NCBI GenBank assembly: GCA_040905475.1
Contig: JBBDRM010000136.1
Coordinates: 18,643-82,642 of the forward strand
Direction: 5' to 3'
Origin: Actinomycetota bacterium
Lineage (GTDB): Bacteria > Actinomycetota > AC-67
DNA length: 64,000 nucleotides
Shown here: piece by piece, positions 9,401 to 54,008 of the stretch
Position numbering within the stretch: the first letter of the stretch is position 1
Layout: each line of letters starts with the position of its first letter
Program-made: the position numbers and the translations under genes
Notes under the pieces: model-generated
The model's input: the letters and a program-made list of their open reading frames with translations, nothing else
Told to the model about the DNA's origin: nothing
The model's database searches: none

Positions 9401-9758
9401 TCAAGCGAGTACGCGGCGCAGCTGCTCGACGTAGTCGTCCGAGCAGCCGTGGGCTTGGGCGCCACGGATGAGCGCCGACAGGTACCTCTTCGACGGCTTC
9501 TTGTATCCGCGCGGGATCGCGAAGTAGACCTGCGCGTCGACATCGCGGCCGTCGAATGAGACCGTAACGACGTCGCGGACGTACGCCCCGATGTCGATCC
9601 CCTCGTACGTATCGAGCGCGGCGAAGTGCTCGGTCGGTGAGGTCCCAAAGCACGCCCCATACTTCGGAATCTGGATCGGGATCGATGTGGGCGACGCCGC
9701 CGCCCCACGCCGGCGAGTCGCGGGTGAGCGTAAGCCGGTACCCGCCCAGCCGCGCGGT
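9401..9758 (-). pseudogene. Truncated, frameshifted gamma-glutamylcyclotransferase-like gene
   Basis: Read leftward, this piece encodes a close relative of the intact gene at 10764-11198. It starts inside the family at R-L-G-G-Y-R-L-T-L-T, has the W-G-G-G-V and E-V-W-G-V-L-W-D blocks, then continues to a TGA at 9401-9403. One extra base near 9634 shifts the frame between W-D-L-T-D and E-H-F-A-A-L-D. The N-terminus, including the Y-G-S-N substrate-binding motif, is absent because the sequence changes at about 9755 into a fragment of an acyl-CoA ligase on the other strand. It cannot make a working enzyme as read. Confidence 0.75.
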
Positions 9759-10763: not shown

Positions 10764-11198
10764 TCAGTCCGGAAGTGCGCGCAGTCGCTCGACGTACCCG
10801 GCCGGGAGGCCGTGCGCTTCGGCGCCGCGAACGAGTGCGGCGATGTAGCGCTTCGACGGGCGCTTGAAACCGCGCGGGACCGCCAGGTAGACGATCGCCT
10901 CCACCTTGTAACCGTTGTGCGTCACGGTCACGCTATCGCGGACGTAGGCGCCGCCGGCGATCCCTTCGTATTCGTCCAGCGCGGTCATGTCGGCTTCCGT
11001 CGCGTCCCAGAGGACACCCCAAACTTCGTCGGCGACGTCGGGCTCGATGTGGCCGACGCCGCCTCCCCACGACGGGGAGTCCCGGGTGAACGTGAGCCGC
11101 CAGCCTGCAAGCCTCGCGGCCCCGAGCGCGCGGGCCTCCGGTGCGCGCGAGCTCATCTGCATGGGATCCATGTTGCTGCCGTAGGCGAAGTAGAGCAC
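10764..11198 (-). CDS. Gamma-glutamylcyclotransferase-like (GGCT/AIG2 fold) protein
   Basis: This 144-residue protein has the substrate-binding loop Y-F-A-Y-G-S-N-M at the N-terminus and the catalytic-type glutamate in L-D-E-Y-E-G near residue 79, as in GGCT-family enzymes that release pyroglutamate (5-oxoproline) from gamma-glutamyl amines. The bacterial members have varied substrates, so only the fold and chemistry are assigned. A truncated, frameshifted paralogue is at 9401-9758, so this family was duplicated locally. It sits 18 bp upstream of the methyltransferase gene in the same direction. Confidence 0.85.
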   Translation of the reverse strand: MLYFAYGSNMDPMQMSSRAPEARALGAARLAGWRLTFTRDSPSWGGGVGHIEPDVADEVWGVLWDATEADMTALDEYEGIAGGAYVRDSVTVTHNGYKVEAIVYLAVPRGFKRPSKRYIAALVRGAEAHGLPAGYVERLRALPD

Positions 11199-24784: not shown

Positions 24785-25138
24785 TCAGATCCGCCAGGCC
24801 GGGCGCAGCCAGGTGCGGCGACCGCAGGCCGGACACTTGATGTAGGCCGGATAGCGCCGCGGCACCGTCAGCCAGAACGGGAACGCGAGCCGCGGCAGCT
24901 CGCGCAGCCGCACGGGTGACTCGCGCTTGCACGACGAGCACTCGAGGATCAGCGTGCCGAGCCGTCCCTGCGTCCGCGCGCCTACTGAGAAGAGCGCCAG
25001 CTTCCCGAGCGGGTCGGGCTCCCGGCTGATCTGTTTGTAGTGCGCGAGCTGGTCTTCGATCAGCTGGCGGTCCCAGTCCGCGGGGTCAGCGCTCCGCGGC
25101 GTCGTGCGCGTCTCGCCGTTCTCCGTTGTTCGCTGCAT
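24785..25138 (-). CDS. Small zinc-ribbon protein, unknown function
   Basis: This 117-residue protein has two cysteine pairs, C-S-S-C near residue 67 and C-P-A-C near 103, that should bind one zinc. The rest is polar with several Arg. The only in-frame start giving the whole domain is the ATG at 25138, inside the last 53 bases of parA in another frame. The overlap implies co-expression with parA. It is not recognised as a named family. Confidence 0.65.
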   Translation of the reverse strand: MQRTTENGETRTTPRSADPADWDRQLIEDQLAHYKQISREPDPLGKLALFSVGARTQGRLGTLILECSSCKRESPVRLRELPRLAFPFWLTVPRRYPAYIKCPACGRRTWLRPAWRI

Positions 25139-25883
25139 CGAGCATGCTCCTCGCGATCTGACGGTACGCCTCGGCGCCCAGGTGTGACGGGGCGAACTTG
25201 AGGATCGATCGCCCTGAACGGGGCGCTTCGGCGAACCGGATCGATTTCCGGATGGGTGGGGAAAGCACGGGAAGGCGGTACCGCCTCCCGACATCGTCCA
25301 GGATCTCCTGGCCGTGCTGCGTGCGGGAATCGTAGAGCGTGGGCAGGATCCCGATCACCTCGAGGCCTTTGTTCGTGAGGCGCCGGACGTCGTCGATCGT
25401 CTCCAGCAGCTGACCGACGCCTCGATGCGCCAGAGCCTCGCACTGCATCGGGATGATCACCGCGTCCGCCGCCGTCAAGGCGTTGATGGTCATCACGCCG
25501 AGCGACGGGGGGCAGTCGAGCAGGATCCAGTCGTAGTGGATCTGGACGTCCTCGAGCGCGGTGCGTAGCGCATACTCACGGCCGGTTCGGGTCAGCAGGT
25601 AGGCCTCGGCGCCGGCGAGGTCGATGTTCGCTGGGACCAGGTCGACCTCGGCGAGCTGGTGGATCGTCTTGCCGATCGGGACGCGGCCCACCAGGACGTC
25701 GTGGATCGTCGTGTCGAGCGCGTCCGAGTCCAGCCCGAGCGAAAAGGTCAGGCAGCCCTGCGGGTCGAGATCGACGAGCAACGCCCGGCTGCCCATCTGC
25801 GCGAACGCAGCACCGAGCGCAAGCGTCGACGTCGTTTTCGCCACGCCACCCTTTTGGTTGGCGAGCGCGATGGTCCGAGCCAC
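25086..25883 (-). CDS. ParA/Soj-family ATPase (orphan)
   Basis: This 265-residue P-loop ATPase has the deviant Walker A K-G-G-V-A-K-T-T at 11-18 with the signature lysine, D-L-D-P-Q-G as the A' motif, and D-C-P-P-S-L-G as Walker B. These are features of ParA proteins that pattern DNA or protein cargo by ATP-dependent dimerisation on the nucleoid. No parB gene is next to it, so it may position something other than a chromosome. It starts at GTG. A long palindrome lies about 90 bp upstream (25971-26005). Confidence 0.88.
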   Translation of the reverse strand: MARTIALANQKGGVAKTTSTLALGAAFAQMGSRALLVDLDPQGCLTFSLGLDSDALDTTIHDVLVGRVPIGKTIHQLAEVDLVPANIDLAGAEAYLLTRTGREYALRTALEDVQIHYDWILLDCPPSLGVMTINALTAADAVIIPMQCEALAHRGVGQLLETIDDVRRLTNKGLEVIGILPTLYDSRTQHGQEILDDVGRRYRLPVLSPPIRKSIRFAEAPRSGRSILKFAPSHLGAEAYRQIARSMLDAANNGERRDAHDAAER

Positions 25884-25970: not shown

Positions 25971-26005
25971 GACGAACCGGACAACGAAATTTCGTTGTGT
26001 TCGTC
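25971..26005. promoter_or_regulatory. Long nested palindrome upstream of parA
   Basis: ACAACGAAATTTCGTTGT (25981-25998) is a perfect 18-bp palindrome. It is flanked by a second inverted repeat, GACGAAC (25971-25977) and GTTCGTC (25999-26005), offset by three bases on one side. It lies between the aminotransferase stop and parA. It may be a terminator hairpin for the aminotransferase mRNA (no T-run follows) or an operator/partition-like site for ParA. The core is strikingly AT-rich for this DNA. Confidence 0.5.
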
Positions 26006-27149
26006 AGGGGCGCGCGAGTCGCTCGCCTGCGGCGTGCAACGTTTCCAGTTTCTTGCAGAACGAGAACCGGAGCTTCGTCCGTCCCAGCTCGGGCTTGCTG
26101 TAGAACGACGAGCCGGGCACCGAAGCGACTCCGACTTCCTTGGTCAGATGACGCGCAGCGGTGACGTCATCGTCGAATCCCAGGCCGGAGATGTCGGTCA
26201 TGATGTAGTAAGCGCCGTACGGTTTGTAGGTCTTGAACCCCGCGCCTTCCAAGATCGAGAGCATGAGGTCCCGCCGCTCCAGATACTCTTTCGCCAGCCG
26301 AGCGTAGTACTCGTCTGGGAGTCCCATCGCCACTGCACCGGCTTCTTGCAGCGGGGCGGCAGCGCCGACAGTCAGAAAGTCGTGAACCTTGCGGACGCCG
26401 CTCGTTAGCTCCGGCGATGCAACAGTCCATCCGACGCGCCAGCCAGTCACCGAGTAGGTCTTCGAGAGCGCGTTGATCGTAACGGTGCGGTCCTCCATGC
26501 CGGGGATGGTGATGAGCGGGACGTGTTCGTGACCCTCGTAGGTCATGTGCTCGTAGATTTCGTCAGTGAACGCGACCGCCCCCCACTTCTGGCAGAGCGC
26601 GCCGACAGCCTCCAGCTCCGAGCGTGTGAAGACCTTCCCCGTCGGATTGTTCGGCGTGTTGAGGATGATGCCGCGCGTCCGATCGTTGAACGCCGCCGCT
26701 AGCTCGCCCTCGTCAAAGGTCCAGTCAGGCTCGTGCAGCGTCACATAGCGCGGGGTCGCGCCGGACAGGATTGCGTCTGGCCCGTAGTTTTCGTAGAAGG
26801 GTTCAAGGACTACCACTTCGTCGCCGGGGTCGATGACCGCCAGCATCGCGGCGATCATGGCTTCGGTCGAGCCACAGGTGACGCAAAGCTGGGTGTCGGG
26901 ATTCACACGCATCCCGTACGTCCGCTCGAACTTCGCGGCGATGGCCTCACGGAAGTTCTGGGCACCCCAAGTGATTGCGTATTGATTCAAGTCGGCATCA
27001 ATCGCGCCCTTGGCCGCGTCCTTCAGTTCTTGTGGGCATGCAAAGTCAGGGAACCCCTGGGCGAGGTTGATCGCGCCGTGGGCGATGGCGAGCCGGGTCA
27101 TGTCGCGGATGACCGACTCGGTGAACGACGCCGCCTTAGCCGATATCAT
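26004..27149 (-). CDS. PLP-dependent class I/II aminotransferase
   Basis: This 381-residue fold-type I aminotransferase resembles kynurenine/methionine aminotransferases. It has L-A-Q-G-F-P-D-F near 28, N-T-P-N-N-P-T-G-K near 165, the PLP lysine in A-L-S-K-T-Y-S-V-T-G-W-R near 232, and K-L-R-F-S-F-C-K at the end. The ATG at 27149 has AGGGGGCCAAGG just before it and overlaps (ATGA) the stop of a truncated aminotransferase copy. Its codons carry more A/T in third positions than the two truncated copies to the right. It therefore probably came from a different lineage than they did. Confidence 0.9.
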   Translation of the reverse strand: MISAKAASFTESVIRDMTRLAIAHGAINLAQGFPDFACPQELKDAAKGAIDADLNQYAITWGAQNFREAIAAKFERTYGMRVNPDTQLCVTCGSTEAMIAAMLAVIDPGDEVVVLEPFYENYGPDAILSGATPRYVTLHEPDWTFDEGELAAAFNDRTRGIILNTPNNPTGKVFTRSELEAVGALCQKWGAVAFTDEIYEHMTYEGHEHVPLITIPGMEDRTVTINALSKTYSVTGWRVGWTVASPELTSGVRKVHDFLTVGAAAPLQEAGAVAMGLPDEYYARLAKEYLERRDLMLSILEGAGFKTYKPYGAYYIMTDISGLGFDDDVTAARHLTKEVGVASVPGSSFYSKPELGRTKLRFSFCKKLETLHAAGERLARP

Positions 27150-27571
27150 CCTTGGCCCCCTGACCTGCAAAAATGTCCTTTCTTCTCGTAGAAGGGCTCG
27201 AAGACGACCACCTCGTCACCCGGGTCGACGATCGCGAGCATCGCCGCGATCATCGCCTCGGTCGACCCGCAGGTGACGCAGAGCTGCCGGTTCGGGTCGA
27301 CGGCCATGCCGTAGGTGCGCTCGAACTTCCCGGCGATCGCCTCGCGGAAGCGTTGCGCGCCCCAGGTGATCGCGTACTGGTTGATGTCGGCGTCGATGGC
27401 TTCTTTGGCCGCGTCCTTCAGCTCTTGCGGGCACGCGAAGTCCGGGAAGCCCTGCGCGAGGTTGATCGCGCCGTGCGCGATCGCCAGCCGGGTCATGTCG
27501 CGGATCACCGACTCGGTGAAGGACGCAGCCTTGGCGGAGATCCGTATCTCGCCCATCGAGAAATCGCTCAT
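27146..27571 (-). pseudogene. Truncated aminotransferase, N-terminal copy A
   Basis: About 120 residues match the N-terminal third of the intact aminotransferase, ending at V-F-E-P-F-Y-E. The next 12 residues are unrelated and run into a stop that overlaps the intact gene's start. The PLP lysine and substrate domains are absent, so the product cannot be an enzyme. The ATG at 27556 corresponds to the native start of copy B; an in-frame ATG lies 15 bases upstream at 27571. The DNA is almost identical to copy B (28992-29329) but clearly diverged from the intact gene. Confidence 0.85.
27183..27520. repeat. 338-bp direct repeat, left copy
   Basis: This segment matches 28992-29329 base for base with only about three differences found by eye (in ...gtcAcc..., ...gaCgat... 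and ...gcCagcc...). To the right of 27520 the two copies suddenly diverge although they still encode similar residues. To the left of 27183 they share nothing. The abrupt left edge is at the same base in both copies. Confidence 0.9.
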
Positions 27572-27642
27572 AGACAGGTTCCTTGATAGCGCTCACGGAG
27601 AATGCGTCCCGCTAATCGAGGCCGTCAATGCCCTGGTTCAGC

Positions 27643-28191
27643 TCAGCTTCTTCGGCTCAAAGCCAGCTTAGCGGTTAATGGACGGGGCCAGTCCGGGCGG
27701 CCAACGGAAAGGAACAGGGTCGTTGCCTTTGGTGAAAGCCGTGGTCGAAAAGTCCACCGTCCGGTTAGGGCGACGGCGTCCGACTCATATGATCTCCCCA
27801 AGAATGTGTATGTGTTGTTTAGGTCGTCTCTCGCCTCGACGCGCCATGAAGGGTCTCGGGGGCTCCCTGGAATCAACGCATACCCTATCTTGAATCGGTC
27901 TGACCAAATCTCCAGGCTGAGAAGGAACGTAGCCTCCGTCGCCTCCCGTGGGGTGATTCTCGACAGCCACGGCAGAACTCGAACAGGTTTGGGAAATGGG
28001 AGATTCGTAGGAAGATCTTTCGAGGATTCCTCCGTCGGAGGCTCCCTATCGAGGCTCAAAATCCAAGGTAATAGTCGTAATGGCAAATCAATCGCTGCGG
28101 CTGATAGTCCAAGCCACATTCCGGCGTAGGATACGACGCCCAGTACCAACCTGGCCAAAGCACGAGGTGGAAATCGGCCTCCCAATGCCAA
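27643..28191 (-). CDS. Putative membrane-anchored protein in low-GC segment
   Basis: This product of up to 182 residues is not recognised. A hydrophobic stretch near residues 12-45 would anchor it in the membrane. The rest reads like a secreted beta-rich domain (V-E-A-R-D-D-L-N-N-T-Y-T-F-L-G, then G-R-W-T-F-R-P). The start is uncertain: TTG at 28191, or ATG at 28119. Codon use is much less GC-biased than in the surrounding genes, which suggests acquisition from elsewhere. Confidence 0.5.
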   Translation of the reverse strand: MALGGRFPPRALARLVLGVVSYAGMWLGLSAAAIDLPLRLLPWILSLDREPPTEESSKDLPTNLPFPKPVRVLPWLSRITPREATEATFLLSLEIWSDRFKIGYALIPGSPRDPSWRVEARDDLNNTYTFLGRSYESDAVALTGRWTFRPRLSPKATTLFLSVGRPDWPRPLTAKLALSRRS

Positions 28192-28286
28192 TCACCGCGA
28201 CAGTATTGCGAAACTCCCTTACTCTCGTATTGCTGGCGGCAGTTGATCGCTCCTGCGTGTTGGACGGCAGGACGACCATGGACCTC

Positions 28287-28673
28287 CTAACCAATCTCTC
28301 CTATCGATGCGATGAACTCCCATCCACGCCCAGGGTCCCAATACCAGGCCACTCCTGCTGCGCTCAGGCCGTTCATTTCCGCGCTGCACCACGCCTTAAC
28401 GCCCATATCCATCACCCCAACGTAATCAGGTGATCGCTGAAACTCATCCTCGTGCCAGCAGTAGATCGTTTGTTCTTCTTGGGCAGTTGTCGGGGCGCCT
28501 GCGCCTGCAAAACCGCAGACGTTAAACGCCTTCTCACACCCCAACGGGACGAGGCCAGCGGCGTCCCGCACACGGGCGACGAACCTCATCGTGTGAAGCT
28601 TGATACCGCCTTGGGCTGGGAGTTATGTCAACACCAGACCCATCAGAAGCGCCACGAGCGCCGCCCGTTTCAT
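28287..28673 (-). pseudogene. Small secreted protein gene interrupted by an in-frame stop
   Basis: An ATG at 28673, preceded by GGGAGGGGGCAGG, begins a clear signal peptide (M-K-R-A-A-L-V-A-L-L-M-G-L-V-L-T). Codon 17 is TAA (28623-28625). Beyond it the same frame stays open for about 112 codons and encodes a Cys/Trp-containing domain (N-V-C-G-F-A-G-A-G, Y-C-W-H-E-D-E-F, A-W-C-S-A-E-M-N-G, W-Y-W-D-P-G-R-G-W) to a TAG at 28287. An internal ATG at 28589 could give a 100-residue product without the signal. The family is unknown. The stop may be a mutation or a read error. Confidence 0.6.
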
Positions 28674-28698
28674 CCTGCCCCCTCCCGACGCCGAGTTA

Positions 28699-28726
28699 AT
28701 CATTTGGCGCATACAGCCCAAATCAT
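28699..28726. promoter_or_regulatory. Inverted repeat upstream of the secreted-protein gene
   Basis: ATCATTTGG and CCAAATCAT, separated by 10 bases, form a 9-bp inverted repeat with one mismatch. It lies 26-53 bp before the ATG at 28673, near TATGAT-like hexamers that could serve as a -10. It is a candidate operator or promoter element in an AT-rich patch. The assignment is by pattern only. Confidence 0.3.
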
Positions 28727-28801
28727 ATCATATCTGGCTTATACCATGGGAGTCAGCGCCGCCCTCCACCACTGGCTGTGGGAATGTGGTCCCGCCCACG
28801 G

Positions 28802-28984
28802 TCACTCCGCCGCGAACGCTTCGGCAACAACGGGCAAAGCCGCTGGCCGGTGGTCGGGAAGCGGATGCCGGCGAGGCCGACCGCAAGCTCCTTGATGTTG
28901 TCTTCAATGTCGTCGACGAATGCAAGCCCAGCAGGAGTCGCCAAAGGATTAGGCCACAAGCCTTCTGCCAGCGGAAGTGGAATG
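28802..28984 (-). pseudogene. Decayed C-terminal fragment of a HAD hydrolase
   Basis: The frame reads L-A-T-P-A-G-L-A-F-V-D-D-I-E-D-N-I, then G-L-A-G-I-R-F, then P-L-L-P-K. This aligns with the last 50 residues of the intact HAD protein at 29368-30039 (A-F-V-D-D-I-E-D-N-V, G-L-V-G-I-R-F, P-L-F-P-K). A one-base deletion after P-K breaks the frame; correcting it gives A-F-A-A-E and a stop at 28802, matching the intact A-F-A-A-G-R ending. The nucleophile half is absent. Its codons differ from the intact copy's, so it is from a related but diverged lineage. Confidence 0.75.
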
Positions 28985-29365
28985 TCCCTGGTTCTCGTAG
29001 AAGGGCTCGAAGACGACCACCTCGTCGCCCGGGTCGAAGATCGCGAGCATCGCCGCGATCATCGCCTCGGTCGACCCGCAGGTGACGCAGAGCTGCCGGT
29101 TCGGGTCGACGGCCATGCCGTAGGTGCGCTCGAACTTCCCGGCGATCGCCTCGCGGAAGCGTTGCGCGCCCCAGGTGATCGCGTACTGGTTGATGTCGGC
29201 GTCGATGGCTTCTTTGGCCGCGTCCTTCAGCTCTTGCGGGCACGCGAAGTCCGGGAAGCCCTGCGCGAGGTTGATCGCGCCGTGCGCGATCGCGAGCCGG
29301 GTCATGTCGCGGATCACCGACTCGGTGAACGAGGCGGCTTTCGCTGAGATGCCCACGTCGCCCAT
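28949..29365 (-). pseudogene. Truncated aminotransferase, N-terminal copy B
   Basis: It starts with ATG at 29365, two bases after the intact HAD gene's stop, so it occupies the place expected of a native second gene in a HAD-aminotransferase operon. About 120 residues match the aminotransferase N-terminus, stopping at V-F-E-P-F-Y-E-N like copy A. The sequence then jumps into the decayed HAD tail and reaches a stop. No PLP-lysine region remains. It is the right-hand copy of the 338-bp repeat. Confidence 0.85.
28992..29329. repeat. 338-bp direct repeat, right copy
   Basis: This is the partner of 27183-27520, in the same orientation and 1,809 bp away. It lies inside the truncated aminotransferase copy B. 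Homologous recombination between the two copies would delete or amplify the intervening low-GC segment. Confidence 0.9.
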
Positions 29366-29367
29366 CG

Positions 29368-30039
29368 TCAACGCCCCGCCGCGAATGCCTTCGGGAACAA
29401 CGGCCGCAGCCGGTCCATCACCTCGCCGTTGGTGGTGAATCGGATCCCGACCAGGCCCACGTTGCGCGCGCCGACCACATTGTCCTCGATGTCGTCGACG
29501 AACGCCGCGCGTGCCGGTGGGACGGCGAGGCGCTCGCAGGTCAGCCGGTAGATGCGCGGGTCGGGCTTGCGCATCCCGACCTCACTCGAGTCGACGACGA
29601 CCTCGAACACATCGGTCGGATAGAACTCGCGCCAGCCGCCCCACTCCTTCACGTTGTTGGTGAGCAGCCCGACCTTGTAGTGCTCGCTGATCCGCCGGGC
29701 GGTCTCGATCATCTCGTCGTTGCGGCGGATCCGGCCCCACAGCTTCTTGCGAACCTCCGCCGGATCTTCCGGCATCGTGATCGTGCTGCCCATCTCGCCG
29801 AGCTTGACGCCCAGCCGCCGGTAGTAGTCGGCCTCGGTGATCTGTCCGGTCTCGAGCAGATGGAAATCGGAAGAGCCGTCGGTGCTCGAGTAGTGCTCAC
29901 GGAAGGTCTTGACCAGCTCTCCCGGCTGCAGCCCCAGATCCTTCTCGAAGTCGGCGAACGACTCGAGGACCGGGGTAGTCAGCACCCCGCCGAGATCGAA
30001 GATCGCGGCGTCGAGCTCTGCGGCTTCCGTACCCGGCAC
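29368..30039 (-). CDS. HAD-superfamily hydrolase (subfamily IA)
   Basis: This 223-residue HAD phosphatase-like protein has the nucleophile Asp at 15 in F-D-L-G-G-V-L-T, the Thr motif in L-L-T-N-N-V-K near 125, the Lys in M-R-K-P-D-P-R-I-Y near 157, and the metal-binding F-V-D-D-I-E-D-N. All catalytic motifs are intact. Members dephosphorylate small metabolites or act as haloacid dehalogenases; the substrate is unknown. It starts at GTG. It appears to have headed an operon with an aminotransferase, now truncated. Confidence 0.88.
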   Translation of the reverse strand: MPGTEAAELDAAIFDLGGVLTTPVLESFADFEKDLGLQPGELVKTFREHYSSTDGSSDFHLLETGQITEADYYRRLGVKLGEMGSTITMPEDPAEVRKKLWGRIRRNDEMIETARRISEHYKVGLLTNNVKEWGGWREFYPTDVFEVVVDSSEVGMRKPDPRIYRLTCERLAVPPARAAFVDDIEDNVVGARNVGLVGIRFTTNGEVMDRLRPLFPKAFAAGR

Positions 30040-32957: not shown

Positions 32958-35900
32958 CTACACCGCGGCGAAGGAGTCGGCGTGTGCCTCGGCCACGATG
33001 ATCTCGATGCCCAAGCCCTCGATGAGGGCCTCCGCGGCCGTGATCACCACGCGGATCGACCGGACCGTGAGCCCTGAGCTCGTCGTACCCGAGCAGCTCG
33101 GAAGCGCAGCGGTGCCGTCGCAAAGCTGCTCATTCAGGATCACGAAGCCGATCCCCGGGAGCTCGATGACGGTGTTCGGGGGCGGCGTCACGTTGATAGG
33201 CGTCCCGGCGATGACCAGACCCACGAGCTGCGTCCCCGTTGGGTTGGAGAACGCCATCCCACCACCCGCGGTGCTGTTCGCCTGCGAGCGGACGAGAGTC
33301 GCGCCGACCGTACATCCGTCGTCCGTCCTGAGGACGCAGACGTCGGCGGCCTCGGCGTAGCTCGACGACCAAGCTCCTGCCGGTGCGATGAAGCCGGTAC
33401 TGTCGGAATCGGCCGCGGCCGCATCCACCACGGAACCGTCCAGGATGTCGGCTTCATCGAGAGCCTGGTGGTCCGACCCGCCGGACGGCGGGATGCCGAC
33501 GAAGCCGACGGTCGCACTCAGCAGGTCGGGATTGATCGCAGCGTGAGCGATGAAGGCGTGCCCGCTGACGGCCCGAAGCAGGCCGCCGCCTCCGCAGAGG
33601 GTGATCTGCGGGAAGTCGGCGTGCGCGAACGCGTGCGACACGACGATCTCGACCCTGCCCAGCAGCGCCATGTTGGTGACGTGGACACGGATCATGTTCA
33701 CCGCGATGTCGGCGGCGTAGGTTCCGCCCGAGAGCTGGCCGGGCGCCGGACGAGCCGTGGAAACGAGCTGCTCATAGAGCCGCACGTAGCTCCCCGCCCC
33801 GAAGAGGGCCGCCGGCAGCCTGACCGTGGTGTTCGGGGCCACGTTGTTCATCGCGACGCCCCGTACCTTCAGGTTCTTGAAGGTCGATCCGAGCGAGCTC
33901 GTCGTCGAGGAGCTGCCGTCCGCCGTCGCCGACGCCACTGCGCGCACGACGTCGGCGGTGACGACCCCGTTGAGGATGTTCACGCCGAGCACCTCCGCGG
34001 TGCCGGTGTCGGATGCGCGGGCGGGCTCCTCCGAAACCACACTCGAGCTGGTCGTCTGGAGCAGACCGGCGCGGAGCACATTCCCCGTCGGCGGCAAGAG
34101 GCTGACACTCAGCAAGGAATCCGCATCGCTGTCCGCACCGACGCCCGACTGAACGCTGTCCACCGGGATCAGCGTCTCGTCGATCCCCAGGATGTCCACG
34201 CCCACGTTGGCCGCGTACGCGTTGCCGCTGGCGTGTGCCAGCTCGGGATGGGCTCCAGGGGTGACGATGAGGCAGAGCTGGTTCGAGGGGGTCGGCGCGG
34301 TCTGAGCGCTGTCACCCATAGCGGTGTTGCAGATCTGGCAGGACGAGAGGGCGGCGTTGATGCTCACGGTCATCGACACAGCCACCGCAGCTTGCGGCGC
34401 GATCGGCGCGGCGATGGCCCAGCTCACCTGCGTGACCGGAGGACCATCGGTCTCGCAACCGCCGGTGCACGACACGTAGGTCGTCTGCGCCGGGACGGCG
34501 TCGGAGACCGTCACACCGGTCAGCGTGGTGTTGCCGGTGTTCGTGACGGTGAAGACGTAGGTTAGCGTGTCGCCCTCGTCGAGGAGGCCGTTGCCGTTCT
34601 CGTCGGCGTTGACGCTCGACTTGACGACGGACATCGCCGGAGTCTGAGTGATGGGCACGTCGAACTCATCGTCGTCTGGAGGGGTCTGATCCGAGTCGCC
34701 CGTCGCGATGTTGTGCACGTTGCCCGCGTCGATGTCCGCCTGGGTGATGGTGTAGCTGCCGGTGCACGACACTGCCTGTCCAACCCCGAGCGTGCCCGTA
34801 GCCCCCGGCCATGTGCAGACGAGTACCCCGGCCAGCGGGTCGACGACCGTAACGCCGGTCAGCGTGGTGTTGCCGATGTTGGTGACGGTGATCGTGTAGT
34901 TGATCTTGTCACCGGGGTTGACCACGTTGTCGGACCCGTCGTCGAGGACGCCCGACTTCTGCGTGTCGATCGCCGGCGCCTGAGGGATGGGCTCGATGTT
35001 GGTGTCGGAATCAGGCTCGGACTGCGTGCTGTCTGCCGTGCCCGTGTTGGTGACCGAACCCGCGTCGATGTCCGATTGGGTGATCGTGTACGTGGCGGTG
35101 CACGTCATCGACGCACCCGGCGCGAGCGCGGTTGCCGGACACGAGATCGCCGACAGGCCCACCTTCGGGTCGGTGACGGTGATGCCGGTCAGCGTGACGT
35201 TCCCGGTGTTGGTGACGACGAAGGTGTAGGAGATCACGTCACCGGGGTTGGCCGATCCGTTCCCGCCCAGGGCAAGTGTTCCTTCCTTGTCCAGGTTGAT
35301 CGCGGCGGTCTGAGTGATGGGCTCGACGTTGGTGTCGGAGTCCGGCCCGGACTGGTTCGAATCCGCCGTGGCCGTGTTGGTGACCGAACCTGCGTTGATG
35401 TCGGCCTGCGTGATCGCATAGGTAGCGGTGCAGGTCATCGACGCGCCCGGCGCGAGCGACGTTCCGGGGCACGAGATCGCCGACAGACCCGAGAGCGGAT
35501 CGGTGACGGTGATACCGGTCAACGTGACGTTCCCGACGTTGGTGACGACGAACGTGTAGGAGATCACGTCACCCGGCGTAGCACCATTCCCGCCTTCGTT
35601 CAGCGAACCTTCCTTGTCGATGTCGATCGCCGGAGCTTGCGGGAGCGGCTCGACGTTGGTGTCGGAGTCCGGCCCGGACTGGGTCGAATCCGCGGTTGCG
35701 GTGTTCGTGACAGAACCCGCATCGATGTCGGCCTGGGTGATCGCATAGGTAGCGGTGCAGGTCATCGACGCGGCCGGCGCGAGCGACGTTCCGGGGCACG
35801 AGATCGCCGACAGACCCACCTTTGGATCGGTAACGGTGACGCCGGTCAACGTGACGTTCCCGACGTTGGTGACGACGAACGTGTAGGAGATCACGTCACC

Positions 35901-37214
35901 CGGCGTAGCACCGTCGGACCCCAGCGCGACGGTGCCTTCCTTGTCGATGTCGATGGCGGGAGCTTGCGGGATCGGCTCGACGTTGGTGTCGGAGTCCGGC
36001 CCGGACTCGGTCGAGTCGGCGGTGGCGGTGTTGGTGACCGAGCCGGTGTTGATGTCCGCCTGCGTGATCGCGTACGTGGCGGTGCAGGTCATCGACGCAC
36101 CGACCGCAAGTGTCGTCGCCGGGCAGCTGATCGCCGACAGACCCGGAAGCGGATCGGTCACCGTGACGCCCGTCAAGGCAACGTCTCCGGTGTTGGTAAC
36201 GAGGAACGTGTAGGAGATCACGTCACCGGGAGTGGCACCGTCGGATCCCGTTGCGAGCGTTCCTTCCTTGTTGATCGTCAGCGACGGGTTGAGCTTATTG
36301 TTGGTGAAGGTACAGGTGATCTGCTGACCGGAAGCAAGATCGACCGTGACCGAGGGCTTGCTGACGACGGGGCCACCTCCGGTGCATGAGATGCTCGCGA
36401 GCGTCCAGCCTGTCGGCACGACCTCGGTGAGGGTGACCGGGACGTCGGACCGAACGGGGAGGAACGCCGTTTCGCCGGAACCGTCGATCGTCGCGAAGAG
36501 TCCGCCCGGCGGTGTGAGGTTGAAGTTGAAGTCCGTCCCGTCCTCGGCCGGCGTCGCAACCTTGACGATCTTGATGAACGCGTCGCGCGGGATCAGGACG
36601 CAGTCCGACGGATCGGAATTCGGCTGGGCAGACGGATACGAACACGTGTTGAGGAGCTCCGCACCCGCGCCCATCTCCGCCAGCACGATCGTGCACGATG
36701 CAGTCGTGTCGTTCGGAAAGGCCGTACCCGGCCCGTTGGGAACGTTGGGGCCGAACGGATCGGTGTTCGTCACAGCGACGCTACACGTCGACTCGGGAGT
36801 CCCCGGGACCTGCACGGCACCCGCGCAGCGATCGGCCCGGGTGTCGTTGCATGTGAAAAGGCGAGGGCTGCCCGCGATCTGCGTGGGAGTGCTTCCACCC
36901 CACGTAACGCAAAGGGCGCTGTTCGCCAGGCCGTCGCCGTCGGTGTCGAAGAGTGCGCACCCGTCCGCCGTGTTGTTCCCCGATATCGTGACGATGTCCC
37001 AGTTCCAGGTGACGGCGATCGTATTCGGCAGTCCGGCGGTATCGACCGTGTGCCGCGTGAGGTCTTTCTGGCCGGGTCCGTCATTGTCGTTGGCCCCGCC
37101 CTCGTCGATGAAGACGATCGGTGCCGCCAGCACCGGGAGCGGAGCGAAGGTCGCTCCCACCAAGGCGACGAGCAAGACGGCGACGAGACGTGCGATCAGC
37201 TTGCGAGAGTGCAT
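32958..37214 (-). CDS. Large secreted DUF11-repeat protein with choice-of-anchor P-like domains
   Basis: This is a 1,418-residue exported protein. The signal peptide (M-H-S-R-K-L-I-A-R-L-V-A-V-L-L then A-x-A) spans 1-30. The ATG at 37214 is chosen because GGAGG sits 7 bases before it, whereas the ATG six bases upstream touches the ribosome site. After a Cys-containing N-terminal region comes a prealbumin/SpaA-like domain (about 215-310), then six DUF11-type beta domains of about 109 residues (about 310-990). Two C-terminal domains follow with A-P-N-T-T-V-R-L-P and P-P-N-T-V-I-E-L-P-G plus N-E-Q-L, as in choice-of-anchor P proteins. No LPXTG or membrane helix ends the chain. It probably forms part of the cell surface or matrix. 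Confidence 0.85.
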   Translation of the reverse strand: MHSRKLIARLVAVLLVALVGATFAPLPVLAAPIVFIDEGGANDNDGPGQKDLTRHTVDTAGLPNTIAVTWNWDIVTISGNNTADGCALFDTDGDGLANSALCVTWGGSTPTQIAGSPRLFTCNDTRADRCAGAVQVPGTPESTCSVAVTNTDPFGPNVPNGPGTAFPNDTTASCTIVLAEMGAGAELLNTCSYPSAQPNSDPSDCVLIPRDAFIKIVKVATPAEDGTDFNFNLTPPGGLFATIDGSGETAFLPVRSDVPVTLTEVVPTGWTLASISCTGGGPVVSKPSVTVDLASGQQITCTFTNNKLNPSLTINKEGTLATGSDGATPGDVISYTFLVTNTGDVALTGVTVTDPLPGLSAISCPATTLAVGASMTCTATYAITQADINTGSVTNTATADSTESGPDSDTNVEPIPQAPAIDIDKEGTVALGSDGATPGDVISYTFVVTNVGNVTLTGVTVTDPKVGLSAISCPGTSLAPAASMTCTATYAITQADIDAGSVTNTATADSTQSGPDSDTNVEPLPQAPAIDIDKEGSLNEGGNGATPGDVISYTFVVTNVGNVTLTGITVTDPLSGLSAISCPGTSLAPGASMTCTATYAITQADINAGSVTNTATADSNQSGPDSDTNVEPITQTAAINLDKEGTLALGGNGSANPGDVISYTFVVTNTGNVTLTGITVTDPKVGLSAISCPATALAPGASMTCTATYTITQSDIDAGSVTNTGTADSTQSEPDSDTNIEPIPQAPAIDTQKSGVLDDGSDNVVNPGDKINYTITVTNIGNTTLTGVTVVDPLAGVLVCTWPGATGTLGVGQAVSCTGSYTITQADIDAGNVHNIATGDSDQTPPDDDEFDVPITQTPAMSVVKSSVNADENGNGLLDEGDTLTYVFTVTNTGNTTLTGVTVSDAVPAQTTYVSCTGGCETDGPPVTQVSWAIAAPIAPQAAVAVSMTVSINAALSSCQICNTAMGDSAQTAPTPSNQLCLIVTPGAHPELAHASGNAYAANVGVDILGIDETLIPVDSVQSGVGADSDADSLLSVSLLPPTGNVLRAGLLQTTSSSVVSEEPARASDTGTAEVLGVNILNGVVTADVVRAVASATADGSSSTTSSLGSTFKNLKVRGVAMNNVAPNTTVRLPAALFGAGSYVRLYEQLVSTARPAPGQLSGGTYAADIAVNMIRVHVTNMALLGRVEIVVSHAFAHADFPQITLCGGGGLLRAVSGHAFIAHAAINPDLLSATVGFVGIPPSGGSDHQALDEADILDGSVVDAAAADSDSTGFIAPAGAWSSSYAEAADVCVLRTDDGCTVGATLVRSQANSTAGGGMAFSNPTGTQLVGLVIAGTPINVTPPPNTVIELPGIGFVILNEQLCDGTAALPSCSGTTSSGLTVRSIRVVITAAEALIEGLGIEIIVAEAHADSFAAV
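34250..36290 (-). repeat. Tandem ~327-bp coding repeats (DUF11 array)
   Basis: Six head-to-tail units encode the DUF11 domains. Unit boundaries recur at about 36,290, 35,960, 35,630, 35,303, 34,975 and 34,640. The first four units are very alike (G-D-V-I-S-Y-T-F, G-L-S-A-I-S-C-P, S-M-T-C-T-A-T-Y); the fifth and sixth have drifted. DNA-level similarity of units 1-4 is high enough for recombination to change copy number. Confidence 0.9.
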
Positions 37215-37470
37215 GGCCATTCCTCCGTTTCGCGCCGGACGGCTCGACGCCCGTCCCCCAAGGCCCCTGATTCCCGAGCGCGTCCCCAACGTCGCTCGGC
37301 AAAATGAAATGATGAGTACCGTAGGTGAGTATTGAGCACGCCCGACCAAAGTGGGAGTGTTCGGCGGCGGAGCAAACGACTACATATCAGCCCAGGCGGC
37401 AGCCGCAGCAGGCCGATTTGTTCTGTTTGGCGAGAGCGCGCTTAGGACACCGGTCGCGACCGGGCAGGGC

Positions 37471-52272: not shown

Positions 52273-52377
52273 AGATTCCTCTCCTCATCTGGTCGGGCGC
52301 CTTTTAGATATAATTCTTTGCGATTTGAAGAAGATGCCAGTCAAGAGCACGCCATATGCGACTTCTTTACGCAGGTC

Positions 52378-52406
52378 TTGTGGATTTACGATAAACGCGT
52401 TATAAT
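52378..52406 (+). promoter_or_regulatory. Sigma-70-type promoter of the AbiE operon (leaderless)
   Basis: TTGTGG (52378-52383) and TATAAT (52401-52406) are separated by exactly 17 bp. The ATG of the AbiEi gene begins 7 bases after the -10, so transcription should start at or next to the start codon and give a leaderless mRNA. The region is AT-rich compared with flanking genes. Confidence 0.8.
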
Positions 52407-52413
52407 AAGTCGC

Positions 52414-53232
52414 ATGAAGAAGAGGCCTGGCTACAACGAAATGGTAGGTCGCCTTGCCGCTCGAGGCATTGAGATGTTCACCCTTGCCGACCTGCGGACA
52501 AACTTCGACCTCACAAATACGCAGGCGTATCAGCTTGGGCATCAGCTCGCCCGAAGACGTCTCGTCCGACGGGTCAAGCCAGGCCTCTACGTGATCCTTC
52601 ACCCCGCGGATTGGCAAGCCGGACCCGGTGCGGGTGTCGACCGCTTTTGGGCTGCCGCGAATGCGGTTCGAGGAGAGCCCCACTACCTCGCGTACTACAC
52701 CGCTATGGACTTCCACGGCATGATCCAACATCCCCTAAGAACCGTCTTTGTTGCCGTTGAAAGACCTCACAGGAACCTAATGCTAGGCACGGTCGAGGTG
52801 AGGTTCGTCAAATTGATCCCACGCAAGCTCTTTGGCCACGAGGAAAGGCGTACGGCTGGTGGTCACGTCGTTCGAGTCGCTCAACTAGAACGTACCTTTC
52901 TCGACTGCGTGGACCGTCCCGACCTCTGCGGAGGGATCGAAGAGGTCTTTCGAGGCTTCGCGAAACGTAAGCGGGATCTGGACCATGATCGACTCTTGCG
53001 GTTCGTCCATCGACTTGACAAACCTGTTCTTACCAAGCGATTGGGGTTCTTACTTGAGATGGCGGGCGGAGACCCGGAGTTGCTACTCGAGCTCGAACGC
53101 ACCACTGGCCGCCTCAAACGCTTCGTCCCGTTAGACAAGACCGTTCCGGCAGACGGCGACGAGCGCAACAGCAGGTGGGAGCTCATCGTCAATACGAACT
53201 TGCAGCGACTGTTCGCGGCGGCTCGAACATGA
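52414..53232 (+). CDS. abiEi: AbiEi-family antitoxin (type IV toxin-antitoxin)
   Basis: This 272-residue protein has an N-terminal winged helix (M-V-G-R-L-A-A-R-G-I-E-M-F-T-L-A-D-L-R, then L-V-R-R-V-K-P-G-L-Y near 45). A C-terminal AbiEi antitoxin domain follows, including Y-L-A-Y-Y-T-A-M-D-F-H-G and L-E-R-T-F-L-D-C-V-D-R-P. AbiEi proteins repress their own operon and counteract the AbiEii nucleotidyltransferase without direct binding. The ATG at 52414 fits the promoter. Lower GC than the neighbours and an AT-rich leader suggest recent arrival. It overlaps abiEii (ATGA). Confidence 0.87.
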   Translation: MKKRPGYNEMVGRLAARGIEMFTLADLRTNFDLTNTQAYQLGHQLARRRLVRRVKPGLYVILHPADWQAGPGAGVDRFWAAANAVRGEPHYLAYYTAMDFHGMIQHPLRTVFVAVERPHRNLMLGTVEVRFVKLIPRKLFGHEERRTAGGHVVRVAQLERTFLDCVDRPDLCGGIEEVFRGFAKRKRDLDHDRLLRFVHRLDKPVLTKRLGFLLEMAGGDPELLLELERTTGRLKRFVPLDKTVPADGDERNSRWELIVNTNLQRLFAAART

Positions 53233-54008
53233 TCGACGAACACGAAATCACAACGCGAGCAAGAAGACTCGGCGTAGATCCTTCCTACATACAGAAGGAT
53301 TATGTCTTGAACTGCGTTTTGGCGGCGATTGCCCAAGTCGGCGACGGGCTTGTCTTCCGCGGAGGTACCGCACTCGCTCGCGTCTTCTGGCCCGACTTTC
53401 GGTTGTCCGAGGATCTCGACTTCATCACTACATCGAGGATCGCGCCGAAGCTGGCGGCGATTCTGGACCAAGCGGTGGATGCCGCCACTCTACAGTCGGG
53501 CTTGGACCTTCGACTCGACTTCGGACCCCCGAAGGGACACTGGTCACGGTCACTTGTTCGATCTGATCGCATCGAGATACTGATCGACATTAACCTGGGC
53601 GATCGACCCTACCTTCCCGTCGAACATCTCGAACTCGACCTTCCGTATTCAGACTCCCCCAATCCGTCGCCCAGGATAGGCGTCGTTCAACTCGCCGAGA
53701 TCTTGGGGAATAAGTGGTTCATGCTGGACGACAGCGACCGGAACGAACCGCGCGACCTATTCGATGTGTGGGCCGGCCTTCAGCGCTTTGACGTGGCCTT
53801 CGAGGAGCTCGCTCGTGGCCACCGGGCCAAATACGGATTCGCTCCAATGATCCGGCAACTAAGGAACGCCCGTCGGCTCGAGCCACTGTGGGTAACAAGG
53901 CTTTCGCACCAATTGGTGAACCTTCCGCCCTTCGATGATGTCTACGCCTCGGTCCTCCGGTACTACGAAGCATGGCACGGCTCCTCCGGTCGTGGAGCTG
54001 ATGACTGA
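53229..54008 (+). CDS. abiEii: AbiEii-family nucleotidyltransferase toxin
   Basis: This 259-residue protein has the DNA polymerase beta-type nucleotidyltransferase signature F-R-G-G-T-A-L-A-R near residue 46 and L-S-E-D-L-D-F near 62, followed by an acidic residue on the D-I-N-L-G-D strand near 118. AbiEii/MenA-type toxins add nucleotides to tRNA and block growth, which can abort phage infection. The ATG overlaps abiEi by four bases. The active-site motifs look complete. Confidence 0.9.
   Translation: MIDEHEITTRARRLGVDPSYIQKDYVLNCVLAAIAQVGDGLVFRGGTALARVFWPDFRLSEDLDFITTSRIAPKLAAILDQAVDAATLQSGLDLRLDFGPPKGHWSRSLVRSDRIEILIDINLGDRPYLPVEHLELDLPYSDSPNPSPRIGVVQLAEILGNKWFMLDDSDRNEPRDLFDVWAGLQRFDVAFEELARGHRAKYGFAPMIRQLRNARRLEPLWVTRLSHQLVNLPPFDDVYASVLRYYEAWHGSSGRGADD

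Follow-up and report, generated by a model that had tools for sequence, protein, structure and literature searches.

Organization of the locus

The window, the whole 64,000-nucleotide stretch of DNA that was analyzed, is part of an 87-kb contig. The draft genome to which it belongs comprises 173 contigs and 4.24 Mb and is estimated to be 97.4% complete and 4.4% contaminated. On the minus strand of the window sequence, read leftward from position 30039, a gene for a HAD-superfamily hydrolase (HAD1) is followed by a piece of an aminotransferase (AT) gene (p3), a fragment of a second HAD gene (HAD2), a low-GC stretch (X), a second AT piece (p2) and a complete AT gene (AT3). The features are:

29368–30039, minus strand: HAD1, intact HAD-superfamily hydrolase (PF00702, 8e-14), in the ancestral position, adjoining a divergent methyltransferase gene
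28991–29365, minus strand: p3, aminotransferase N-terminal piece of about 125 codons, matching Aminotran_1_2 profile positions 4–103 only
28946–28990, minus strand: p3/HAD2 junction segment, 45 bases assignable to neither gene, with AATGTCC at 28981–28987 on the plus strand
28802–28945, minus strand: HAD2, C-terminal fragment of a second, diverged HAD, 70% identical to HAD1 in nucleotides
27572–28794, no strand assigned: X, low-GC orphan stretch of about 1.2 kb with no recognizable gene
27183–27571, minus strand: p2, second aminotransferase N-terminal piece, with its own ATG and AAGGA upstream; breakpoint between 27485 and 27521
27150–27182, minus strand: p2/AT3 junction segment, 33 bases; the TGA of the p2 frame overlaps the AT3 ATG (ATGA)
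26004–27149, minus strand: AT3, complete class I/II aminotransferase (PF00155, 1e-62), in the ancestral slot beside ParA
25086–25883, minus strand: ParA-type ATPase (context; AAA_31, 5e-57), 75–77% identical in amino acids to the ParA next to AT in G002, G003 and G004

An earlier note, made from the sequence alone, had set out the six pieces from HAD1 to AT3, and their order and places were borne out almost to the base. This includes the gap of two bases at 29365–29370, where the HAD1 stop codon (TGA, 29370–29368) is followed by the ATG of p3 (29365–29363). Between the intact genes HAD1 and AT3 lie 2.2 kb (27150–29367) that hold the truncated 5' ends of two AT genes, a HAD that is both truncated and decayed, and orphan DNA.

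Gene order in the family

The comparison set comprised four genomes of the same family from other genera (G001 to G004). In G002 the HAD gene directly adjoins the AT gene, and ParA and a zinc-ribbon gene come next. G003 has this order too, except that a MerR gene and a gene for a 629-aa protein lie between HAD and AT (contig C16, L029:7200-9880), and in G001 a PD-(D/E)XK nuclease gene lies there (contig C158, L030:1225-2004). In G004, AT, ParA and the zinc-ribbon gene are on one contig and the HAD gene is beside a methyltransferase gene on another. The HAD-AT gap is variable in the family, being absent in G002 and holding differing cargo in G001 and G003. The window retains both flanking arrangements, methyltransferase-HAD and AT-ParA-zinc-ribbon. 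These four family-level relatives show an ancestral order, HAD-(variable)-AT-ParA-zinc-ribbon, and the direct HAD-AT neighborhood of G002 supports the ancestral operon proposed in the earlier note. Because of this family gene order, HAD1 and AT3 are taken to be in their ancestral positions and the material between them to be debris. The HAD-AT-ParA-zinc-ribbon order was not seen in 77 other loci examined. It is present in JACQXY010000031.1, a sequence titled 'Acidobacteria bacterium', a name that may be wrong.

The two HAD sequences

In a profile search HAD1 matches the Pfam Hydrolase/HAD_2 families, and it is 57–58% identical in amino acids to the HAD near AT in G001, G002 and G003. The presence of a C-terminal piece of a second, diverged HAD was confirmed: HAD2 aligns with HAD1 at 70% nucleotide identity over 130 bp (E 4e-11), differs from it by a 9-bp gap and a frameshift, and ends at its own TGA. 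Among the HADs compared, HAD1 is the closest to HAD2. The missing N-terminus of HAD2 has no match elsewhere in the 97%-complete source genome. A core gene, rpoB, is incomplete in this assembly, with only the N-terminal ~300 codons found (contig C101:24553-25413), and absences from the source genome are therefore less trustworthy.

The truncated aminotransferase pieces

Both p2 and p3 match Aminotran_1_2 over the first ~104 of 361 positions only (profile 4–104). They were described in the earlier note as nearly identical, which holds: they are 95.6% identical over 387 bp and 97.5% identical over 118 codons, and include an exact run of 255 bp (p2 positions 27230–27484). In ungapped comparison, differences are found at 27218, 27229 and 27485, then at 27521, 27524, 27527, 27530, 27533 and 27536, which are six successive third codon positions, with more beyond 27536 toward the start codon. 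Of the 9 differences in the shared frame, 8 affect third positions (P 1e-3). The differences are concentrated toward the 5' end (Fisher P 1e-4), and under random placement of differences a 255-bp exact run has P 9e-5. Inside the AT coding sequence, between 27485 and 27521, p2 passes from a diverged 5' portion into a body identical with that of p3. On this pattern p2 is a mosaic, with a body homogenized with p3 and a 5' end that comes from a separate coding sequence under selection, given the third-position bias, the 5' clustering and the long exact run. Such a mosaic is the product of homologous recombination or conversion, or of an assembler crossing between two strains. The breakpoint within p2 fits the claim that the locus was broken and rejoined by recombination.

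The homology of p3 ends after EPFYEN, and p2 and p3 break off at the same codon, right after EPFYE, and then continue into unrelated sequence. The 7-bp sequence AATGTCC is found at the same offset past both breakpoints. Since both pieces end after EPFYE with AATGTCC at that offset, their common end point calls for an older truncation common to both, a recurrent event, or a preferred illegitimate join. No AT C-terminus matching p2 or p3 was found elsewhere in the 97%-complete source genome.

Could either piece still be functional? Both end after codon ~125–130 and have neither the PLP-binding lysine nor a C-terminal domain. Because they end before that lysine, p2 and p3 cannot encode active aminotransferases. 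The GC content at third codon positions (GC3) of the pieces is 0.93–0.95, at the high end for genes of the window. Since their frames are still open and high in GC3, the loss of function looks recent, as judged from the reading frames. It is also conceivable, but improbable, that p2 has been retained as a leader frame, with translation of AT3 coupled to p2 and X supplying a promoter. The features of p2 that would suit this role are its AAGGA ribosome site, its uninterrupted frame, and differences from p3 that are almost only at third positions, together with the 4-base overlap (ATGA) of its TGA with the AT3 start codon. Chance is the default reading of this overlap and ribosome site.

The complete aminotransferase

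AT3 spans the full Aminotran_1_2 domain (profile 4–357 of 361) and carries the PLP-lysine motif SKTYSVTGWR, in which K230 is invariant in our alignment (A1). The nearest NCBIfam family, PRK07777, scores 414.7 bits, under its curated cut-off of 553. AT3 is 85% identical in amino acids to the AT of G001. Over the 118 codons shared with the pieces, AT3 is 81% identical to them in DNA (82% in a separate alignment) and 91% in protein. For comparison, the AT of G001, from a different genus, has 82% DNA and 92% protein identity to the pieces over the same codons. The divergence is therefore real, with AT3 and the pieces representing two lineages about as far apart as another genus, as the earlier note had suggested. 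In a full-length AT tree AT3 falls just outside G001+G003+G004 (95/93), and in a tree over the 350-bp N-terminal region AT3, the pieces and G001 form a trio without resolved order. Because the divergence is about that between genera, the order of the trio is not settled, and AT3 lies just outside G001+G003+G004, AT3 did not arise by recent copying of the pieces. In the rpoB tree (295 residues) the source genome groups with G001 (89/92).

Which lineage is the resident one? The 350-bp N-terminal trees leave this branching order undecided. The earlier note had seen AT3 as a replacement, in different codon usage, for a broken native gene. The codon usage does differ from that of the pieces, with a GC3 over the shared N-terminal region of 0.78 for AT3 and 0.94 for the pieces (Fisher P 3e-4), but not from that of the window genes: GC3 is 0.80 over the whole of AT3, against a mean of 0.83 (sd 0.10) for the window, where 6 of 29 genes are lower. 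AT3 as a compositionally foreign gene was ruled out on these values. Comparison with the relatives yielded the ancestral order and at the same time lent no support to the replacement: AT3 is found where that order places the AT gene, next to ParA and the zinc-ribbon gene, and G002, G003 and G004 have the same arrangement. Neither position nor composition supports AT3 as a replacement, although it may yet be one.

Elsewhere in the window, two adjacent plus-strand ORFs at 52318–54008 have a GC3 of 0.63–0.65 against the window average of ~0.83. They may be considered a candidate import, their composition being more unusual than that of AT3. The ORF at 32958–37349 (minus strand) encodes a 1463-aa protein with tandem internal repeats at 34500–36275, of ~330-bp period and 73–77% identical, and its repeated modules look DUF11-like by eye. 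The segments 9416–9757 and 10779–11119 are 71.6% identical over 345 bp and are possibly diverged paralogous copies.

The low-GC stretch and the junction motifs

X has a GC content of 55–59%, against ~68% around it, and at closer to 1.2 kb is longer than the ~1.1 kb of low-GC DNA first described. It has no NCBIfam, PHROGs, Pfam or significant Rfam family (Rfam gave three sub-threshold matches only), and no match to a phage, plasmid or relative, with nothing matching in the genomes of the family. X as a piece of a known gene, RNA, phage or plasmid was thus ruled out for want of a match. Within X, 28287–28680 on the minus strand has a short signal-peptide-like start (MKRAALVALLMGLVLT) that runs into a stop. 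After the stop comes an open frame of 111 aa (including WCSAEMNGLSAAGVAWYWDPGRGW), which has no relative in 297 genomes of the phylum. At the HAD2/X edge there is a sequence, AATGTGGTCCC, related to AATGTCC.

The traits of mobile elements were sought at the locus, and no integrase, transposase, tRNA, terminal inverted repeats or target duplication were found. The 17-base motif at the p2 junction has one other match in the source genome, with 2 mismatches, and none in 149 other genomes of the phylum; the 18-base form has one match, with 1 mismatch, in 396 other genomes. The p3 form of the motif is single-copy in the source genome, viral contigs contain none of the junction 25- to 27-mers, and neither of the two integrase-type genes in the source genome has the junction motif nearby. 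Ends of an insertion element at the AATGTCC junctions were ruled out, since the longer motifs are about single-copy in the source genome and almost wholly missing from up to 397 phylum genomes, with no transposase nearby. A site-specific island with a duplicated att site was likewise rejected, there being no integrase or tRNA, and the absence of these, of a transposase and of a terminal repeat leaves the inserted island that had been proposed without support.

Origin of the locus

We consider it probable, from the arrangement of the pieces, that recombination has left a scar here, in a HAD-AT-ParA gene cluster specific to the family. DNA of a related bacterium (HAD2-X-AT2) would have recombined into the cluster, with the conserved AT 5' region serving as the homologous anchor. 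The non-homologous ends would then have been joined illegitimately, a short AATGTCC match being present at each AT breakpoint, and p2 and p3 would afterwards have been partly homogenized by gene conversion. The anatomy of the locus is observed, and the donor and the order and number of events are inferred from it. One junction (p2, 27485–27521) is within sequence homologous between the supposed donor and recipient, and the p3/HAD2 and p2/AT3 junctions join unrelated sequence with the 7-bp AATGTCC microhomology.

The main rival is a chimeric assembly, in which two co-occurring relatives have the AT 5' region in common and HAD1-AT1 of one strain has been joined to HAD2-X-AT2 and/or AT3 of another through the identical 255-bp stretch. 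The junctions are known from a single draft assembly, in 173 contigs and with 4.4% estimated contamination, and the C-terminus of the native AT is missing from it. The k-mers usually used by assemblers are shorter than 255 bp, so the exact match exceeds them. Yet a join at a repeat normally leaves one copy, and this locus has kept both, each of the four flanks being different. The AT pieces, moreover, end in unrelated sequence without a long overlap, the flanking genes on both sides retain the family order, and no other contig holds a further HAD-AT copy that a binned strain could have contributed. The present layout does not follow from one simple misjoin, and we regard an assembly artifact as possible but unlikely. 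In one benchmark, 1–2% of contigs in metagenome assemblies were chimeric (PMC7329831).

Less likely again is an internal tandem duplication of the HAD-AT pair, followed by divergence, decay, and gene conversion between the AT pieces. The tandem array with a single orientation, the closeness of HAD2 to HAD1, and the trio of AT3, pieces and G001 without settled order would allow it. No relative, however, has a second close HAD-AT copy or N-terminal-only AT pieces, X matches nothing in the family, and the between-genus divergence of AT3 and the pieces would demand a very old duplication that was lost in every other sampled genome. That the AT breakpoints are the ends of an insertion element with AATGTCC termini, since lost or replaced, is suggested by the shared offset of AATGTCC and by the related AATGTGGTCCC, but is highly improbable given the nearly unrepeated 17- and 18-base motifs, the single-copy p3 form, the lack of transposase, terminal inverted repeats and target duplication, and the two integrase-type genes without the motif nearby.

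Comparison with known systems

The probable recombination scar resembles the products of homology-facilitated illegitimate recombination, which has been described in three naturally competent species and is rare in E. coli conjugation (PMC3240628). In that process foreign DNA is brought in by homologous anchoring at one end and illegitimate joining at the other, and a resident gene can be broken. Here, unlike there, the junctions are read from the assembly, the donor, the recipient state and the order of events are inferred, and the three occurrences of the AT 5' end call for more than one event. The same process has been proposed for orphan gene arrays (PMC5361080). In the T6SS immunity arrays of Vibrio cholerae and the Rhs orphan 3' regions, as here, serial imports displace part of a gene and leave tandem remnants (PMC5361080). 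Unlike those arrays, this locus has no toxin, immunity or diversity selection, and its remnants are 5' ends from an enzyme gene of housekeeping type. Pseudogene debris of the ordinary sort next to a conserved operon is similar in that truncated, frameshifted copies adjoin intact ones; it differs in that the AT pieces keep open, high-GC3 frames.

Conclusions

The locus is ordinary in kind and no new mechanism is called for. Such loci in draft genomes should be checked against the reads before they are read biologically. Since one complete HAD and one complete AT are kept, the cell plausibly retains both hydrolase and transaminase activity. Taken as a recombination scar, the locus would be a readable case of exchange between related bacteria that leaves mosaic remnants at a site where the spacing of the genes was already variable.
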